Shown here in pieces: positions 4,348 to 46,020 of a stretch of DNA of 64,000 bases. Each line of letters starts with the position of its first letter. Position 1 is the first letter of the stretch. Source of the DNA: Adhaeribacter swui (GTDB lineage Bacteria > Bacteroidota > Bacteroidia > Cytophagales > Hymenobacteraceae). The position numbers and the translations under genes were made by a program. The notes beneath the pieces were generated by a model. The model was not told the origin of the DNA. It worked only from the letters and a program-made list of their open reading frames with translations, and did no database searches. The stretch is from contig NZ_CP055156.1 in assembly GCF_014217805.1 (NCBI RefSeq), forward strand, positions 5,028,585-5,092,584, written 5' to 3'.

Positions 4348-4421
4348 TAGCGGGGAGGGGAGTTGAACCCCTGACCTCAGGGTTATGAATCCTGTGCTCT
4401 AACCAACTGAGCTACCCCGCC
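4348..4421 (-). tRNA. tRNA-Met (CAT), elongator type
   Basis: A 74-nt cloverleaf reads on the minus strand. Acceptor stem GGCGGGG pairs with CCCCGCT (first pair G-U) and the discriminator is A. The D arm GCTC...GAGC has the TTGG loop. The anticodon loop is TTCATAA, giving CAT. The T arm AGGGG-TTCAACT-CCCCT is standard, and no CCA is encoded. The first base pair G1-U72 and the lack of three G-C pairs at the anticodon stem base argue against initiator tRNA. A lysidine-modified tRNA-Ile2 cannot be excluded from sequence alone. The top pair of the anticodon stem (A31-C39) is a mismatch. Confidence 0.95.
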
Positions 4422-38525: not shown

Positions 38526-38756
38526 ATTTTAGTAAAAATTTTTTAAGTGTTTTTAGTAAGCGATCAATTAACCCGAATCAGGATAAAAAATTAAAGGTAA
38601 AAATTATGCCAACCTGCCAATTGCATTCTGGCAACTTTAAAGTTTAAATAATTAAAATACTATATTATAGCGGCAAATTACAAAAAAGCTGGTGAATTGA
38701 AACCATAGAGCACTACAAAAATTTTAGAATTAATTTTTAAAATTCAAATTCTGGCT

Positions 38757-38764
38757 TACATTTG
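38757..38764 (+). promoter_or_regulatory. -7 element of the histidine operon promoter
   Basis: TACATTTG is an exact TAnnTTTG match. Transcription would begin near 38769, only about five nt before the leader ATG at 38774, so the leader peptide is nearly leaderless. There is no good -33 TTG at the expected spacing (TTT instead). The stretch 38526-38756 is AT-rich and I see no gene in it. Confidence 0.72.
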
Positions 38765-38773
38765 CAGCACCTA

Positions 38774-38881
38774 ATGATGAACAACAGCAAACAACCTAAC
38801 AGCCCCTTTTCTCCGATGCGCTTTCCCGCGTTTGCTTTTGCTGTCCATTTCCACCATTACCATCCTTCCATCCGGAAATAA
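38774..38881 (+). CDS. hisL: His-rich leader peptide of the histidine operon
   Basis: Small open frame of 35 codons, starting MMNNSKQ and ending in SIRK then TAA. It contains the cluster His-Phe-His-His-Tyr-His with His codons at 38846, 38852, 38855 and 38861. The purpose is inferred: shortage of charged tRNA-His would stall the ribosome here and change folding of the downstream RNA. It has not been seen as a protein. The coding frame is confirmed by length, start, stop and His enrichment just before the terminator, not by codon use. The name hisL is by analogy with enterobacteria. Confidence 0.82.
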   Translation: MMNNSKQPNSPFSPMRFPAFAFAVHFHHYHPSIRK

Positions 38882-38942
38882 TATAGAGTATTACCGGATA
38901 GGAGAAAACTCCTGTTTTGCTGTTAATTATCAACAGCTTTTT
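38870..38942 (+). promoter_or_regulatory. Histidine operon attenuator (competing helices and terminator)
   Basis: Three helices follow the His codons. First, ATCCGG (38870-38875) pairs with CCGGAT (38894-38899), continuing with TCC and GGA around a bulged A. Second, AGGAG (38900-38904) pairs with CTCCT (38909-38913) across AAAA. Third, GCTGTT (38919-38924) pairs with AACAGC (38932-38937), followed by a run of five T: an intrinsic terminator 35 nt before hisG. A second copy of TTTTGCTGT sits at 38836-38844 just before the His codons and could compete for AACAGC, and CAGCAAA near 38786 can pair with it. The exact anti-terminator is not settled. Confidence 0.72.
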
Positions 38943-38976
38943 AAAATTTATTATTCAGGAAGATTACAATTTACAT

Positions 38977-39828
38977 ATGATTCGATTAGCCATTCAAAAA
39001 TCGGGAAGATTAAGCGAAGATTCGCTGAATCTCATTCGGGAATGCGGTATTTCTTTTATTAATTCTTCTTTAAAGTTAAAAACCGAAGCCACTAATTTTC
39101 CTTTAGAAATTCTTTTCCTGCGGGACGATGATATACCGGGTTACGTAGCCGACGGTGTTGCCGACATTGGTATTGTGGGCCAAAACGTGTTGGTAGAAGA
39201 AGGCCGCGAAGAACTGCAAGTACAAAAATTAGGATTTTCGCGTTGCCGTTTATCGATTGCTGTTCCTAAAAACGAAGCTTTTACTGACATTTCGGCCTTA
39301 GAAGGTAAAAACATTGCTACTTCTTACCCTAACTTGCTGCAAACATATTTAGCCGGCGAGGGGGTAAAAGCCCAGATTCATACTATAAGCGGTTCCGTAG
39401 AAATTGCGCCTAGCATTGGCCTGGCCGATGCCATTTGCGATATTGTTTCGTCGGGCAGCACGTTAATCAGTAATGGTTTGCGCGAAGTACAAACGGTTTT
39501 CCGCTCCGAGGCTGTTTTAATTGCCAATCAGGATTTAACCAGCGAAAAACACCAACTATTAAATCAGTTGTTGTTCCGGATTGATGCCGTCCGGAAAGCA
39601 CAAAAAGCCAAGTATATTTTACTTAATGCGCCTAACGATGCCATTCCGCACATTAAATCTTTATTACCCGGCATGAAAGCGCCTTCTATTTTACCCTTAG
39701 CCGAAGAAGGCTGGAGTTCTGTGCACTCGGTGGTTAACGAAGATGATTTTTGGGAAATTATTGAAAAATTGCGGGAAGCCGGCGCTCAAGGCATTTTGGT
39801 GGTACCTATTGAGAAAATGATTTTGTAA
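38977..39828 (+). CDS. hisG: ATP phosphoribosyltransferase
   Basis: First enzyme of histidine synthesis; couples ATP and PRPP. 283 aa, the long form with a C-terminal histidine-binding regulatory domain (about 210-283), so feedback inhibition is expected. MIRLAIQKSGRLSEDSL at the start and GVADIGIVGQN near residue 60-70 are diagnostic. The frame is open upstream to 38917, but that part overlaps the attenuator; the ATG at 38977 gives the conserved N-terminus. The stop overlaps the hisD start by one nt. Confidence 0.95.
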   Translation: MIRLAIQKSGRLSEDSLNLIRECGISFINSSLKLKTEATNFPLEILFLRDDDIPGYVADGVADIGIVGQNVLVEEGREELQVQKLGFSRCRLSIAVPKNEAFTDISALEGKNIATSYPNLLQTYLAGEGVKAQIHTISGSVEIAPSIGLADAICDIVSSGSTLISNGLREVQTVFRSEAVLIANQDLTSEKHQLLNQLLFRIDAVRKAQKAKYILLNAPNDAIPHIKSLLPGMKAPSILPLAEEGWSSVHSVVNEDDFWEIIEKLREAGAQGILVVPIEKMIL

Positions 39829-41120
39829 TGTTACGAGTTGTTACATATCCGGGTAAAGAAACCTGGCCCGAACTAATAAAGCGGCCGGTGCAGGATTACG
39901 AATCAGTGGAGTCGCAAATTAAATCGGTTTTTGAACAGGTTCGGCTTACCGGCGACGACGCTTTACGAAGATTTACCGCCCAGTTTGATAAGGTAGAACT
40001 TACCGGTTTATTAGTTTCTCCGGAAGAAATTAAAGCGGCTCAGGATTATATTCCAGCAGAATTGCAACAAGCCATTGCACAGGCCTATCAAAATATTAAA
40101 AAATTTCACGAGGCGCAACATGAGAATTTTCAACCTCTGGAAACCATGCCGGGCGTAACTTGCTGGCGCCAAAGTGTGCCTATTGAAAAAGTAGGTTTAT
40201 ACATTCCCGGCGGTACTGCCCCGTTATTTTCTACGCTACTGATGTTAGGCGTGCCAGCAAAACTGGCCGGTTGCAAAGAAATAGTTTTGTGTACGCCTCC
40301 CGCTAAAGACGGTACCATCCATCCGGCTATTTTGTATACCGCCTCTATTCTGGGCATTAACACCATTATCAAAATAGGCGGAAGTCAGGCAATTGCGGCT
40401 TTAACTTTTGGCACTAACACCGTACCGGCGGTAGCTAAAATTTTTGGACCTGGAAACCAGTACGTGACCGTAGCTAAGCAAATGACTGTTAAATATGGGG
40501 TAGCCATAGACATGCCGGCAGGCCCTTCGGAAGTTTTAGTAATGGCCGATGAAAAAGCAGACCCCACATTTGTGGCCGCCGATTTACTTTCGCAAGCCGA
40601 GCACGGTGTAGATTCGCAAGTGGTTTTACTTACCACCTCCGAGCAAAAGCTGCAAGAAGTAGTCGCGGCTTTAAACAACCAGGTACCTGCTTTGTCGCGG
40701 CAGGCGATGGTGACCCAAACTTTAAAAAATAGTTTAGGCATTATCCTGAACTCCACCACCGAAATGCTGGAATTTTCAAATTTGTACGCGCCAGAGCATT
40801 TAATTTTAGCGGTTGAGAACTATGCGCAAGTGGCGCAAGGAGTAACCAACGCCGGTTCCGTGTTTTTAGGGCCTTACAGTCCGGAGTCGGTCGGTGATTA
40901 TGCTTCGGGGACTAACCATACGCTGCCTACCAACGGGTACGCCCGGGCTTACAGCGGCGTGTCGCTGGATTCTTTTGTTAAAAAAATAACTTTTCAGCAT
41001 CTTACCCCGCAAGGATTGCAACAAATTGGTCCAGGAGTAGAAATTATGGCGGCTGCCGAAGGGTTAGATGCGCACCAACAAGCCGTAAGTATACGTTTAA
41101 AAAATTTAGCTCATGTTTAA
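39828..41120 (+). CDS. hisD: Histidinol dehydrogenase
   Basis: Zinc-dependent NAD enzyme, oxidising histidinol to histidine in the last two steps. YIPGGTAPLFST, KIFGPGNQYVTVAK, PAGPSEVLVMADE and AEHGVDSQVVLLT are signatures; the C-terminal DYASGTNHTLPTNGYAR region holds catalytic residues. 430 aa. One-nt overlap with hisG (TAATG) and eight-nt overlap with hisC. Confidence 0.97.
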   Translation: MLRVVTYPGKETWPELIKRPVQDYESVESQIKSVFEQVRLTGDDALRRFTAQFDKVELTGLLVSPEEIKAAQDYIPAELQQAIAQAYQNIKKFHEAQHENFQPLETMPGVTCWRQSVPIEKVGLYIPGGTAPLFSTLLMLGVPAKLAGCKEIVLCTPPAKDGTIHPAILYTASILGINTIIKIGGSQAIAALTFGTNTVPAVAKIFGPGNQYVTVAKQMTVKYGVAIDMPAGPSEVLVMADEKADPTFVAADLLSQAEHGVDSQVVLLTTSEQKLQEVVAALNNQVPALSRQAMVTQTLKNSLGIILNSTTEMLEFSNLYAPEHLILAVENYAQVAQGVTNAGSVFLGPYSPESVGDYASGTNHTLPTNGYARAYSGVSLDSFVKKITFQHLTPQGLQQIGPGVEIMAAAEGLDAHQQAVSIRLKNLAHV

Positions 41121-42165
41121 GCTGAGTAATTTAGTTCGCCCAAACATTCGGGGCATGAAGCCTTATTCTTCGGCCCGAGATGAATTTAAAGGCGAAGCCA
41201 GTGTTTTTATCGATGCCAACGAAAATAATCTGGGGAGTATGGCGGCGAATCAGCACTATAACCGTTATCCCGATCCGCACCAAAAAGCGCTAAAAGCCCG
41301 GATTGCCGAAATTAAGGAAGTACGGCCGGAGCAAATCTTTTTGGGTAACGGTTCAGATGAGGCCATTGATTTGTTAATCCGCTTAGTTTGCCAGCCCGGC
41401 CACGATCAGATTTTAGCTTTCGGACCCACGTACGGCATGTACGAAGTATCGGCCAACCTGAATGATGTGGAATTACGCCAGGTAAAACTGGATGCTGATT
41501 TTCAGTTGAACCGGAATATGTTGCAAGGGCAAATTCATTCCGAAACCAAAATTGTTTTTATTTGCTCGCCCAATAACCCAAGCGGTAACCTGATTAACCG
41601 GGACATTATTGAATACATTTTGCAATCGTTCAACGGCCTGGTAGTTATAGATGAGGCTTACATTGACTTTTCCTCGGAAGAAAGTTGGACTAAGCGATTA
41701 GCGGATTTCCCGAACCTGGTAGTTTTACAAACGTTTTCTAAAGCCTGGGGCATGGCCGCTTTGCGCTTAGGAATGGCCTTTGCTTCGGAAGAAATTATTT
41801 CTTTTTTAAATAAAATAAAGCCGCCCTACAACATTAACGAAGCTACGCAGGAAATTGCGTTGCAAGCCTTGCAAAACACCGACCGTTTGCACCAAATGAT
41901 TTCGGAAATAAAAGAAAACCGGGCGGAGTTAATTAAAAATTTAAAAAAATTATCAGTCGTAAAAAAGGTTTATCCTTCCGATGCTAATTTTGTTTTGGCG
42001 GAAGTTACCGATGCTAATACCATTTACAATTACTTGTTAGAGGCAGGCATTGTGGTGCGCAACCGTACTACCCAGCCGGGTTGTTTTAACTGTTTACGCA
42101 TATCGGTAGGCACTAAAGAAGAAAACGAAAAACTAGTTAAAACTTTAAAATATTTTAATTTGTAG
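41113..42165 (+). CDS. hisC: Histidinol-phosphate aminotransferase
   Basis: Fold-type I PLP enzyme that converts imidazole-acetol phosphate to histidinol phosphate with glutamate. It has FLGNGSDEAIDLLIR, the CSPNNPSGN motif, VIDEAYIDFS (Asp of PLP) and the Schiff-base Lys in QTFSKAWGMAALRLG (about 215). 350 aa, normal. An 88-nt gap to hisB follows. Confidence 0.96.
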   Translation: MFKLSNLVRPNIRGMKPYSSARDEFKGEASVFIDANENNLGSMAANQHYNRYPDPHQKALKARIAEIKEVRPEQIFLGNGSDEAIDLLIRLVCQPGHDQILAFGPTYGMYEVSANLNDVELRQVKLDADFQLNRNMLQGQIHSETKIVFICSPNNPSGNLINRDIIEYILQSFNGLVVIDEAYIDFSSEESWTKRLADFPNLVVLQTFSKAWGMAALRLGMAFASEEIISFLNKIKPPYNINEATQEIALQALQNTDRLHQMISEIKENRAELIKNLKKLSVVKKVYPSDANFVLAEVTDANTIYNYLLEAGIVVRNRTTQPGCFNCLRISVGTKEENEKLVKTLKYFNL

Positions 42166-42253
42166 GTTCAACTAAATTGTAATTTAGATAATCATAAGTA
42201 TCTCGTTTTGCGATATTTAAATTTTTTAAATAAGTACCATTAGAAAATTTTTA

Positions 42254-43348
42254 ATGAAAAAAGTTTTATTTATTGATCGGGATGGAACCATCCTGATAGA
42301 GCCACCAACCGATTACCAAGTAGATTCTTTTGAAAAGTTTTCCTTTGTTCCGGGAGTTATTCAGAACCTGGCTAAAATCAGTGCCGAACTAGATTATGAA
42401 CTGGTTATGGTAACCAACCAGGATGGACTAGGAACGGCTTCTTATCCCGAAGAAACTTTCTGGCCTTACCAAAACAAAATGCTGGAGATTTTAGCCGGAG
42501 AGGGAATTACTTTTTCGGATATCCTGATCGATAAAAGCTTTGAACACGAAAATTTACCTACCCGTAAGCCCGGATTAGGCATGCTACAAAAGTACCTGGG
42601 TGCAGGTTACGATTTAGAGAACTCCTACGTTATCGGCGACAGAGTTACCGATATAAAAATGGCTGAAAATTTGGGTTGTAAAGCCATTTACCTCAAGGAT
42701 CAGATCAATGAAGCTGCGGCTTTAACCACGCTGAATTGGAGTGAGATTTACACTTTTTTACGGCTCCCGGCCCGTAAAGCTTCCATCATCCGTAATACCA
42801 ACGAAACTAAAATTAAAGTAGATTTAAATCTGGATGGTTCCGGCGCCATGCAAATTCATACGGGTTTAGGTTTCTTCGACCACATGCTGGAACAGTTAGG
42901 TAAACATTCCGGAGTAGATTTATTTATTAACGTAAACGGCGACTTACACATCGACGAACACCATACCATTGAAGATACCGCCATTGCCATTGGGGAGGCT
43001 TTTGCCCAGGCTTTAGGTGATAAACGGGGCATTAGCCGCTACGGTTATTTATTACCCATGGACGATGTATTAGCGCAAGTAGCTTTAGATTTTTCGGGTC
43101 GGCCCTGGATAGTTTGGGAAGCAGAATTTAAAAGGGAAAAAGTAGGGGATATGCCTACTGAAATGTTTTACCATTTTTTTAAATCTTTCTCCGATGCGGC
43201 TAAATGTAACTTAAATGTAAAGGCCGAAGGCACCAACGAACACCACAAAATAGAAGCAATTTTTAAAGCGGTAGCTAAATCCATTAAAATGGCTGTGGCC
43301 CGCGACGTAAATAAAATGGAGATTCCGAGTACCAAAGGAATTTTGTAA
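42254..43348 (+). CDS. hisB: Bifunctional histidinol-phosphatase / imidazoleglycerol-phosphate dehydratase
   Basis: 364 residues, fused. The N-terminal HAD domain (about 1-165) has DRDGTIL with Asp8 and Asp10 as nucleophile and acid/base. The C-terminal IGPD domain (about 175-364) has [30 protein letters not shown] and [15 protein letters not shown], with the metal-binding His residues. This fusion, as in E. coli, supplies two separate steps. The gap upstream is the longest in the operon; the junction with hisH is tight (43348). Confidence 0.96.
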
Positions 43349-43929
43349 TGAGTGTTGTCATCATTGATTATAAAGGCGGGAATGTGCAATCAGTTAAATT
43401 TGCGCTCGAAAGATTAGGCGTAGAAGCTACTTTAACTGCTGATGCCGAAACCATCCGGGCCGCCGATAAAATTATTTTCCCGGGCGAAGGAGAAGCCAGC
43501 TCGGCCATGCAAGAATTACGAGCCCGCGGCTTAGATAAAGTAATTCCGGAACTGACGCAGCCGTTCTTAGGCATCTGTTTAGGCATTCAATTGTTGTGTC
43601 GGCATTCCGAGGAAAACGATACCGAAATGCTTGATATTATTCCGGTTAACGTAAAAAAGTTCCAGCATCACTTAAAGGTGCCGCACATGGGTTGGAACAA
43701 TTTATACAACTTGCAGGGCGCCTTGTTCGAAGGGGTAAAAGAACAAGATTACGTGTATTTCGTGCACAGTTATTACTTGCCCGTTTGTGAGTACACCATT
43801 GCCACCGCCGCCTACCCGGAACCGTTTAGCGCAGCAGTGCAGTACAAAAACTTTTACGCCATGCAGTTCCACACCGAAAAAAGCGGCCCCACCGGCACCC
43901 GTATTATTCAGAACTTTCTTTCTTTATGA
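43348..43929 (+). CDS. hisH: Imidazole glycerol phosphate synthase, glutaminase subunit
   Basis: Class I glutamine amidotransferase of 193 aa that supplies ammonia to HisF. The nucleophile is Cys77 in FLGICLGIQLL; His and Glu of the triad are in FHTEKSGP near the C-terminus. The usual oxyanion strand PGVGxF is PGEGEASSAM here. One-nt overlap with hisB, four-nt overlap with hisA. Confidence 0.95.
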   Translation: MSVVIIDYKGGNVQSVKFALERLGVEATLTADAETIRAADKIIFPGEGEASSAMQELRARGLDKVIPELTQPFLGICLGIQLLCRHSEENDTEMLDIIPVNVKKFQHHLKVPHMGWNNLYNLQGALFEGVKEQDYVYFVHSYYLPVCEYTIATAAYPEPFSAAVQYKNFYAMQFHTEKSGPTGTRIIQNFLSL

Positions 43930-44648
43930 TTCAGATTATTCCTGCCATTGATATAATAAACGGACAATGCGTGCGCCTGACCGAAGGTGATTTTAACCAG
44001 CAAAAAACGTATGCAAACAATCCGGTAGAAGTAGCCAAGCAATTTGAAGCAGCCGGTTTAACGCGTTTGCACCTCGTAGATTTAGATGGCGCCCGGGCCA
44101 AACAACCAAAAAATTTAGCTGTACTGGAGGCTATTGCCAATCAAACAAATTTAAAAATAGATTTTGGCGGCGGCATTCAATCCGACTCTGCGATACAGGA
44201 AGTATTTAATGCTGGGGCCAGCCAAATTACGGCCGGTAGCATTGCCGTACGCGAAGCGGCCAAGGTGCAAGATTGGCTTACTACTTACGGAGCAGAAAAA
44301 ATAATTATTGGCGCTGATTTCCGGGATAATTTTATTTCTATTAACGCCTGGGCTGAACAATCTACCGTATCGCTGCAGGATTTTATTGGCCAGTATATTG
44401 CTTCGGGCGCAACTACTTTTATTTGCACCGATGTGAGTAAAGACGGTAAACTGCAAGGCCCGGCTACGGCCATTTATTCCGAGCTAGTAAAAACTAATCC
44501 GGGAACTGCTTTTATCGCTAGCGGGGGAGTTACCACCATTAAAGATTTAGATGAACTGGAAGCCGCCGGCGTTTCCGGGGCCATTATTGGCAAAGCCATT
44601 TACGAAGGAACCATTGCCTTAGCTGATTTAAACCGCTTTGTATGTTAA
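43926..44648 (+). CDS. hisA: ProFAR isomerase
   Basis: Phosphoribosylformimino-AICAR-phosphate isomerase, (beta-alpha)8 barrel of 240 aa. IIPAIDIINGQCVRLTEGD at the start carries the first catalytic Asp (AIDI), and CTDVSKDGKLQGPA (about 160-173) the second Asp; phosphate-binding GGGIQSD and SGGVTTIKD follow. Overlaps hisH by 4 nt and hisF by 7 nt. Confidence 0.96.
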   Translation: MIQIIPAIDIINGQCVRLTEGDFNQQKTYANNPVEVAKQFEAAGLTRLHLVDLDGARAKQPKNLAVLEAIANQTNLKIDFGGGIQSDSAIQEVFNAGASQITAGSIAVREAAKVQDWLTTYGAEKIIIGADFRDNFISINAWAEQSTVSLQDFIGQYIASGATTFICTDVSKDGKLQGPATAIYSELVKTNPGTAFIASGGVTTIKDLDELEAAGVSGAIIGKAIYEGTIALADLNRFVC

Positions 44649-45403
44649 CGAAACGCATTATTCCCTGCTTGGACATTAAAAACGGCCGCACCGTAAAAGG
44701 CATCCGTTTTGAAAACATCCGGGATGCCGGCGATCCGGTGGCCTTAGCCGCAGAATACGCCCGCCAAGGAGCCGACGAATTGGTTTTCCTGGACATTACC
44801 GCTACCAACGAAGAGCGTAAAACTTTTGCGCAGTTGGTGCGGGATATTGCCCGCCACATTGATATTCCTTTTACCGTAGGCGGTGGCATTGCCGCGATTA
44901 GCGACGTAGAAGTTTTACTGCACGAAGGTGCCGACAAAGTATCTATTAACTCCGCGGCCATTAAAGAACCGCAGTTGGTCTATGATTTAGCTAAACGTTT
45001 CGGGAGCCAGTGCATCACGGTGGCTATTGATACTAAATTTACGGCGGCTGGCTGGAAGGTTTTTAGCCGGGCAGGTACCGTGGAAACCGAACATTATACC
45101 CTGGATTGGGCCAAACAAATTACCGACTTAGGCGCTGGCGAAATTTTGTTAACGTCCATGAGTCACGATGGTACCAAAGACGGCTTTGCCCTGGATATTA
45201 CTGGTGATGTATCGCGGGGCGTTTCTATTCCGGTAATTGCCTCCGGGGGTGCCGGTAAAATGGATCATTTTGCCGATGTTTTTAACCAGGCTAACGCCGA
45301 TGCCGCCCTAGCGGCCAGTATTTTTCATTTCGGGGAAGTGCCCATTCCCGATCTTAAAGCTTATTTAGCCAACCAGCAATTACCCATTCGCTTATGTTAT
45401 TAG
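44642..45403 (+). CDS. hisF: Imidazole glycerol phosphate synthase, cyclase subunit
   Basis: 253-residue barrel that, with HisH, makes imidazole glycerol phosphate and AICAR. KRIIPCLDIKNGRTVKGI (first Asp) and LTSMSHDGTKDGFALD (second Asp, about 175-190) are diagnostic. Overlaps hisA by 7 nt and hisIE by 10 nt. Confidence 0.97.
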   Translation: MLTKRIIPCLDIKNGRTVKGIRFENIRDAGDPVALAAEYARQGADELVFLDITATNEERKTFAQLVRDIARHIDIPFTVGGGIAAISDVEVLLHEGADKVSINSAAIKEPQLVYDLAKRFGSQCITVAIDTKFTAAGWKVFSRAGTVETEHYTLDWAKQITDLGAGEILLTSMSHDGTKDGFALDITGDVSRGVSIPVIASGGAGKMDHFADVFNQANADAALAASIFHFGEVPIPDLKAYLANQQLPIRLCY

Positions 45404-46020
45404 ATTTTGCCAAGTCCGGCGGATTAATCCCGGCTGTAATTCAGGACAACACAACCCAGGAAGTACTTATGCTGGGTTTCATGAACCAGGAAGCCTACGA
45501 GAAAACCCAGCAGGAGAAAATTGTTACCTTCTTTTCCCGGACTAAAAACCGGCTCTGGACCAAAGGCGAAACCAGCGGTAACTTTCTGCACGTGGTAAAC
45601 ATGCAGGTAGATTGTGATCAGGATACTTTACTCATTAAAGTAAATCCCGTAGGCCCGGTTTGCCATACCGGAGCCCGTACTTGTTTTGAAGCAGCACCTG
45701 ATCCAAATGCCGAAGTTGCCGCTACAAAACCAACGGCTGCTTTTTTAAATTATTTAGAAGATATTATCCAAAGCCGACGCCAAAATCCGCAGGAAAAATC
45801 TTACACCAATTCGCTTTTTGAAAAAGGCATTCAAAAAATTGCCCAAAAAGTAGGAGAGGAAGCCGTAGAAACAGTAATTGACGCTGTGGCTGGTAATAAA
45901 GAACGCCTGAAAGAAGAAGCAGCTGATTTACTCTACCATTTATTAGTTTTATTAGTCGCCTCGGATATGGAAATTAGCGATGTGATGCAAGTTCTGCAGC
46001 ATAGACATCAAAGTAAATAG
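45394..46020 (+). CDS. hisIE: Bifunctional phosphoribosyl-AMP cyclohydrolase / phosphoribosyl-ATP pyrophosphatase
   Basis: 208 residues, fused. The HisI part (about 1-110) has FFSRTKNRLWTKGETSGNFLHV and the metal site CHTGARTCF; the HisE part (about 115-208) has QKVGEEAVETVIDAV and EEAADLLYHLLVLL. Last gene of the operon. Together with hisG, D, C, B, H, A and F, the pathway is complete within the cluster. Confidence 0.96.
   Translation: MLLDFAKSGGLIPAVIQDNTTQEVLMLGFMNQEAYEKTQQEKIVTFFSRTKNRLWTKGETSGNFLHVVNMQVDCDQDTLLIKVNPVGPVCHTGARTCFEAAPDPNAEVAATKPTAAFLNYLEDIIQSRRQNPQEKSYTNSLFEKGIQKIAQKVGEEAVETVIDAVAGNKERLKEEAADLLYHLLVLLVASDMEISDVMQVLQHRHQSK

Follow-up and report, generated by a model that had tools for sequence, protein, structure and literature searches.

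The window, that is, the whole 64,000-nucleotide stretch of Adhaeribacter swui DNA that was analysed, carries on its forward strand a his operon with hisG as its first gene (38977..46020), delimited by its open reading frames and by HisG homologues. hisG starts at 38977, and the gene order is presumably hisG-D-C-B-H-A-F-IE, the names other than hisG being assigned from the protein sequences. Upstream, on the same strand, lies an ORF of 35 codons plus a stop codon (38774..38881) that is conserved in the family and encodes the His-rich leader peptide MMNNSKQPNSPFSPMRFPAFAFAVHFHHYHPSIRK. The ORF begins at ATG 38774 or at the in-frame ATG 38777, ends with TAA at 38879-38881 and contains, at 38846..38863, the control codons CAT TTC CAC CAT TAC CAT, read as His-Phe-His-His-Tyr-His. 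ATG 38774 lies 9 nt 3' of a -7 promoter box, TACATTTG (38757..38764, forward strand), which reads as an exact TAnnTTTG. A degenerate -33 element, TTTTTA (38734..38739, forward strand), is found 17 nt 5' of the box; it is common to the window and its three nearest relatives (L002-L004), and six of the seven other relatives inspected have TTTTG near the same place. An earlier note on this DNA had reported the 35-codon ORF with HFHHYH, four His codons in six positions, upstream of hisG and after an exact TAnnTTTG; all of this is in the sequence. The combination of box, ATG and His-rich ORF appeared in 5 of 5000 dinucleotide shuffles of the window's hisG upstream region. The nearest named relatives are Adhaeribacter aerolatus and A. 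aquaticus, whose HisG proteins are 87 and 83% identical to that of the window, and identity rises to 95% in other genomes of the same genus. The sole Rfam match in the window at the gathering score is a tRNA gene on the reverse strand at 4348-4421.

Conservation and start of the His leader

For the comparison we took up to 500 nt 5' of hisG from those 50 genomes, out of 59, that have hisG and from 80 named GTDB loci; the 130 hisG loci gave 122 distinct upstream sequences. An ORF was called His-rich if it started with ATG and had 3 or more His within 8 codons. Such an ORF was present in 102 of the 122 upstreams (L102 is probably spurious and L039 weak), among them every same-family genome with hisG (35 of the 37 searched have the gene). 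None of the 20 upstreams without it belongs to the same family, and two of them (L121, L122) are shorter than 500 nt. A strict test, in which the ATG of a His-rich ORF must be preceded by TAnnTTTG at a distance of 3-26 nt, was passed by 93/122 upstreams versus 1/2440 dinucleotide shuffles, and a looser test found 1/122 on the antisense strand. When the box was relaxed to T(A/T)nnTTTG, one lay 3-26 nt 5' of the leader ATG in 100 of the 102 leaders. The earlier note had tied its reading to His codons and a terminator recurring at the same place in relatives. When related hisG upstreams are aligned the His clusters do sit at the same place, whereas a strong terminator there is mostly absent. The sensing half of the system, a His-codon leader ahead of hisG, is thus well supported by conservation.

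Since a conserved His-rich ORF stands near the start of the message, the cell could gauge histidine by ribosome stalling, and we hold it very probable that the leader senses histidine in the form of His-tRNA. The His-rich product might instead be a small functional protein in its own right, for example a metal-binding one, and the sequence HHxHHSS near the C-terminus indeed recurs in many leaders. However, the peptide differs greatly between leaders in length and N-terminus, the HHSS of L003 and L004 corresponds to HPSI in L001 (a hairpin folds there in both types), and the trp operons of the same genomes carry analogous Trp-codon leaders. A functional peptide is, in our judgement, highly improbable.

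In Flavobacterium psychrophilum the promoter box has been measured at -12 to -5 (PMC9723704). This places the predicted start site of the window's transcript at 38769 and leaves a predicted 5' UTR of 5 nt (38769..38773, forward strand), in keeping with the earlier note, which had proposed a Bacteroidota promoter and a leader start about five nt from the predicted transcript start. The same register is common among the relatives: with the looser box, the gap from box to ATG is 6-11 nt in 70/102 leaders, corresponding to a predicted 5' UTR of 2-7 nt. The gap is 16-26 nt in 28/102 and 3 or 5 nt in 2/102, and a box was not found in the remaining 2/102; for L086 the automatic choice picked an upstream ATG. 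Leaderless mRNAs make up 5.5% in F. psychrophilum (PMC9723704), 5' UTRs of less than 10 nt make up 3.7% in Bacteroides thetaiotaomicron (PMC7366714), and the mRNAs of Bacteroidota lack Shine-Dalgarno sequences (PMC6847099). A control ORF that begins so close to the 5' end, some 5 nt by prediction, makes the question of ribosome loading testable in this phylum.

A second TAnnTTTG box was seen within the last 24-48 nt 5' of hisG in all four Adhaeribacter of subclade 2 (L005-L008) and in seven of ten Rufibacter-group upstreams (L009, L012, L013, L015, L053, L054, L087). Located between leader and hisG, it could be a bypass promoter.

Predicted folds between the leader and hisG

Four forward-strand segments enter into the predicted folds. 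The hairpin P1 (38867..38903), a candidate antiterminator, carries the stop codon of the leader close to its tip; it pairs UCCAUCCGG with CCGGAU-A-GGA, plus AAUA with UAUU, and has a predicted energy of -12.9 kcal/mol in the window. All four leaders of the window's subclade (L001-L004) fold a bulged hairpin at this position (-13.5 to -14.6 kcal/mol). The 5' arm of P1 is in relatives partly also fixed as Ser codons. Behind P1 lies t1 (38900..38918), an AGGAG/CTCCT hairpin followed by G-TTTT, which is a candidate weak terminator of -4.9 to -7.3 kcal/mol, depending on the extent taken, and is kept in L001-L004. Next comes t2 (38919..38942), the terminator of the earlier note, of -5.0 kcal/mol: the six base pairs (GCTGTT-n7-AACAGC, 38919-38937) and five T (TTTTT, 38938-38942) are as described there, and so is a short gap between the ORF and the stem, although it measures 37 nt rather than the 38 given. 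In L002-L004 the t2 stem is partly kept and the T-run decays. Finally, a segment early in the ORF (38783..38814) pairs with the 5' arm of t1 and with that of t2 in minimum-energy folds and is a candidate alternative antiterminator.

Because P1 overlaps the 5' arm of the weak t1, a formed P1 should favour read-through, and a scheme for the window can be drawn up as follows. Transcription would begin some 5 nt 5' of the leader ATG, and the ribosome would load on the nearly leaderless 5' end. When charged tRNA-His is scarce, the ribosome would stall at the first His codons and P1 would form ahead of it; when tRNA-His is sufficient, the ribosome would reach the stop codon and P1 would be unwound. 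A formed P1 would allow read-through into hisG, and a melted P1 would lead to premature termination at t1 and t2 behind it. We give an even chance to ribosome-mediated attenuation of this kind, by P1 with t1/t2 and a His-tRNA-sensing leader. That the output of the leader is transcriptional seems likely, whatever the elements involved; that t1 and t2 are the actual terminators is a tentative assignment, which we rather doubt, although for this genus we know no likelier output than termination there. Conservation establishes the ORF, its His codons, the promoter register and the stop-codon hairpin; stalling, the start site and transcription termination as the output we infer.

The effect of ribosome position was modelled by folding. 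Equilibrium folding of whole transcripts was set aside, as it failed to show a switch even in the six classical leaders that served as controls. Since the terminator always wins in such folds, transcripts were cut before the 3' arm of the terminator, a ribosome footprint was placed on the His codons, one at a time, or on the stop codon, and the RNA was refolded. With all RNA outside the footprint free, no switch was predicted in the window: t1 was engaged at 0.77-0.82 and t2 at 0.98 in every state, because the early-ORF RNA pairs with both arms. Hiding the RNA behind the ribosome gave no switch for the window's t2 either (0.12 vs 0.13). In this hidden-RNA model the t1 arm of L001-L004 was engaged at 0.77, 0.90, 0.90 and 1.00 with the ribosome on the first His codon, and at 0.34, 0.28, 0.38 and 0.39 with the ribosome at the stop codon. 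This P1/t1 switch was equalled by 79, 57, 68 and 37 of 200 shuffles for L001-L004 and is thus not beyond chance, and the hidden-RNA model was adopted only after folding with all RNA free had given no switch in the window. The direction is right in four of four leaders, yet, since shuffles match it, this is not proof. In Adhaeribacter subclade 2 the arm was engaged at 0.59-0.96 with the ribosome at the first His codon and masked with it at the stop codon, in folds run without a shuffle control. A long-range pairing in one Pontibacter leader was dropped because it looked unshared among the aligned relatives.

These folds also bear on a different arrangement for the window's subclade, in which the antiterminator would lie behind the stalled ribosome: the early-ORF RNA at 38783-38814 would pair with the t1 and t2 5' arms. 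The leader RNA folds better than its shuffles (z -5.07; z -3.88 for the 3' part), and the arrangement matches this predicted fold. Moreover, in L002 the t2 arm was engaged at 0.08 in the free RNA, about 1.0 with the ribosome stalled and 0.41 with the ribosome at the stop codon, all RNA being free and no shuffle test being applied to these values. However, the window's own arm stays engaged in all states with all RNA free, L003 and L004 show no clear switch, only four related sequences are available, and a second ribosome would cover the pairing strand. We consider an antiterminator behind the ribosome quite improbable.

Terminators and stop-codon hairpins in the clade and the phylum

Terminator strength was compared between groups, using 91 of the 102 leaders for a single-hairpin score and 98 for the stop-codon stem test described below. 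We counted a U-tract hairpin as strong when one stem-loop alone had an energy of -10 kcal/mol or better and a U-rich tract behind it. Such a hairpin was found in 1/4 and 1/4 leaders of the two Adhaeribacter subclades, 4/21 of Pontibacter, 2/10 of Rufibacter and 27/38 of Hymenobacter; the group of Cyclobacteriaceae and near kin had none (0/14). A strong conserved intrinsic terminator between leader and hisG was thus not found in the window's subclade. A second score, which allows branched folds, is kinder to the terminators of Adhaeribacter, Pontibacter and Rufibacter: U-tract structures scored in 5/8 Adhaeribacter leaders versus 3/32 shuffles, 9/21 Pontibacter versus 6/84 and 6/10 Rufibacter versus 12/40. 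Hymenobacter B is also above its shuffles (14/17 versus 39/68). Hymenobacter A (7/8 versus 22/32) and C (10/13 versus 33/52) have the same means as their shuffles, without an excess, and the Cyclobacteriaceae group shows no excess either (0/13 versus 2/52); the classical panel drawn from the rest of the phylum reaches 26/34 versus 8/136. Because U-tract structures beat the shuffles in Adhaeribacter, Pontibacter and Rufibacter, the terminators there are weaker rather than shown to be absent, and the window's clade differs from the rest of the phylum in degree. A terminator partner for P1 was found in no other genus, the exception to its absence being Adhaeribacter subclade 2, where three of four leaders have a GAGGAAT- or GGGGAAT-type arm that pairs with ATTATTCCTC and is followed by a T-run.

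The hairpin at the leader stop codon is, by contrast to these terminators, conserved. It has in most relatives another sequence than the window's P1, typically ATTCCTC, a loop holding the stop codon, and GAGGAAT. A first count that accepted any stem was no better than shuffles in some groups, and a contiguous-stem test was therefore used instead. At the stop codon, 6 or more contiguous base pairs were present in 70/74 leaders from six groups versus 118/1480 shuffles, L007 being counted among the 70 by a different stem. A stem of this length was found in 4/26 classical leaders and, as other stems, in 6/13 leaders of Hymenobacter C. The window's subclade fell short in this test, with two of four leaders positive, both by another stem. 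Among 67 leaders with the motif, the pair that closes the loop is T-A in 20, T-G in 10, C-G in 8 and G-C in 2, and the other 27 have no standard closing pair. A block reading CATATnGCCC sits 8-10 nt beyond the hairpin and is strongly conserved in 44 aligned leaders, which represent 44 of 45 eligible named loci in several genera; it is absent from all Adhaeribacter and from several members of the Algoriphagus group. The exact pattern combining hairpin and block has matches in 24 of 241 genomes of the order, one of them obtained with the pattern reversed. In 19 of these genomes, which belong to families f1 (14) and f19 (5), the match lies 79-191 nt 5' of hisG and occurs once per genome; five genomes of other families have seven matches, of which the sole one checked (L150) is away from the start of hisG. 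Rfam gave no match at gathering score in 20 leaders of the window's clade.

These observations raise the question of whether an intrinsic terminator is needed at all. Histidine could be sensed as proposed above and P1, joined by CATATnGCCC in most of the clade, could act on RNA polymerase pausing, Rho, a protein or mRNA decay. The strong conservation of stop-codon hairpin and block across several genera speaks for this, as does the scarcity of simple strong U-tract hairpins in the Cyclobacteriaceae group, Pontibacter and Rufibacter, while trp leaders of the same families do carry such hairpins (see below). On the other hand, the block is missing from the window's own genus, and under the branched-fold score Adhaeribacter, Pontibacter and Rufibacter have more U-tract structures than their shuffles. 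We regard a terminator-free output as unlikely. The broader form of the idea, that the his leader of Hymenobacteraceae and Cyclobacteriaceae gave up its intrinsic terminator and that stop-codon hairpin and CATATnGCCC control transcription via pausing, Rho or a bound factor, is in our estimate possible to the same limited extent.

Elsewhere in the phylum the picture is closer to the textbook. hisG was present in 96 of 109 phylum genomes, and 60 upstream regions were taken. By a looser test that ignores the box, 36/60 had a His-rich ORF versus 54/1200 shuffles and 0/60 on the antisense strand; the 14 regions next to a distant HisG (26-33% identity, L191-L204) had none. A strong U-tract hairpin (-10 kcal/mol or better) follows 25 of 35 leaders, these being the 36 without L152, which belongs to family f19. 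Fifteen of the 36 panel leaders, delineated by hand, entered the switch folding. A classical switch dependent on stalling at His codons, with a difference of at least 0.3, was predicted in 12/15 of these leaders of other families, and for 9 of these 15 no more than 5% of shuffles matched it. Given the U-tract hairpins and the predicted stall-dependent switch, his attenuation of the textbook kind is probably common across Bacteroidota. Strong terminators also mark the leaders of families f24-f27; 13 of these leaders have a box, and in 10 the gap from box to ATG is at least 17 nt. These families may be Flavobacteriales. Rfam gave nothing but one tRNA for 20 classical leaders (18 from the panel plus L048 and L049). 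Family f41 (L189, L206, L208, L210) has another type of His-rich leader 5' of hisG, with HHGxH or similar, and no terminator was found in these four.

Could the window itself be a textbook four-segment attenuator with t2 as its terminator? The earlier note had seen in it the architecture of classical his attenuation, and all the parts it named are present. Classical attenuators look real elsewhere in the phylum, both by their hairpins and by their predicted switches, L002 shows a switch for its t2, and U-tract structures in Adhaeribacter, Pontibacter and Rufibacter lie above shuffles. Nevertheless, t2 is weak and its T-run is eroded in L002-L004, and folding predicts no t2 switch for the window. 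The classical label thus does not hold for the window's subclade, and we judge a four-segment attenuator ending in t2 improbable.

Known attenuators and leaders of other operons

Leader-peptide attenuation is among the classic modes of gene control, and its enterobacterial his version is textbook background. Vitreschak et al. (2004) reportedly predicted some attenuators in Bacteroidetes/Chlorobi, which could lower the novelty of the present case. The enterobacterial his attenuator (RF00514, His_leader), summarised in PMC9413887, resembles the window in having a short ORF with clustered His codons 5' of a hisG-first operon and hairpins after it. It differs in that the window's leader has a predicted near-leaderless start and has its stop codon inside a hairpin, in a subclade without a strong conserved terminator. 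RF00514 had no match in 38700-39000 at E values up to 10, where only two chance microRNA matches appeared. Firmicutes his attenuators, as described in PMC9413887, comprise a leader peptide with 3-5 His codons, an attenuator, a terminator and an antiterminator; these are the same parts of the leader-peptide scheme in another phylum, a likeness drawn from the description only. Closer to the window, PMC9723704 reports a structured 5' element at hisG that is kept in other Flavobacteriaceae genera, and sees "strong clues" that leader peptides ahead of amino-acid operons act in attenuation. The element shares phylum and gene with the window, has leader-peptide attenuation proposed for it and likewise has no Rfam family, and it too was compared by description only. 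If families f24-f27 are Flavobacteriales, their strong terminators and mostly longer gaps from box to ATG would set that type apart from the window's leader. We found no report of a his leader peptide for Cytophagales, and Bacteroidota are mentioned only in passing in those parts of the literature on leader-peptide attenuation that were at hand. Given the earlier his attenuators and the Flavobacteriaceae hisG element, the kind of control proposed here is already known; what is new is the predicted near-leaderless register, together with a stop-codon hairpin and a terminator that is weak or escapes recognition. The phylum offers a natural experiment, in which the output half of an attenuator changes and the sensor stays: several families have strong terminators, whereas the window's clade has weak or unrecognised ones and a conserved stop-codon hairpin.

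The trp operons provide a further comparison. All five Adhaeribacter trp operons searched (L214, L216-L219) have a near-leaderless leader of the form ...GWWHLLE. that starts 7 nt after a TATATTTG box, and the U-tract hairpin that follows has an energy of -10.6 to -16.5 kcal/mol; the leader of the window's genome (L217) reads MKMKQLYTAGWWHLLEF. Across the same families, 9/11 genomes have a trp leader, and 9/9 of these leaders have a U-tract hairpin of -10.6 kcal/mol or better, counted without a shuffle control; in L221 this hairpin lies far downstream. Like the window's his leader, the L217 leader starts close behind its box and is a short ORF with its control codons, here WW, towards the end; inspection by eye also shows a hairpin around the stop codon. 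Unlike the his leader, the trp leader has a strong terminator (-16.2 kcal/mol plus U tract). Rfam lists a Bacteroid-trp family, RF01692, which appears in PMC2864571; five trp loci and two pheA loci had no Rfam match. At the L221 trpE locus, in a genome of the same family, a second short frame with TGGTGG seems by eye to follow the first Trp leader.

Scans of other amino-acid operons gave fewer candidates. A boxed short ORF was found in 0/10 ilvD upstreams (450 nt scanned), and eight thrA/ilvD stretches contained no convincing leader. Upstream of pheA, two of the ten loci scanned (L256 and L262) have short Phe/Tyr-rich ORFs, MTLFNAYYFSFYFFG... and MIQRNSYFYGFYFFG..., 17-20 nt past a TAnnTTTG, and these look like Phe leader peptides.
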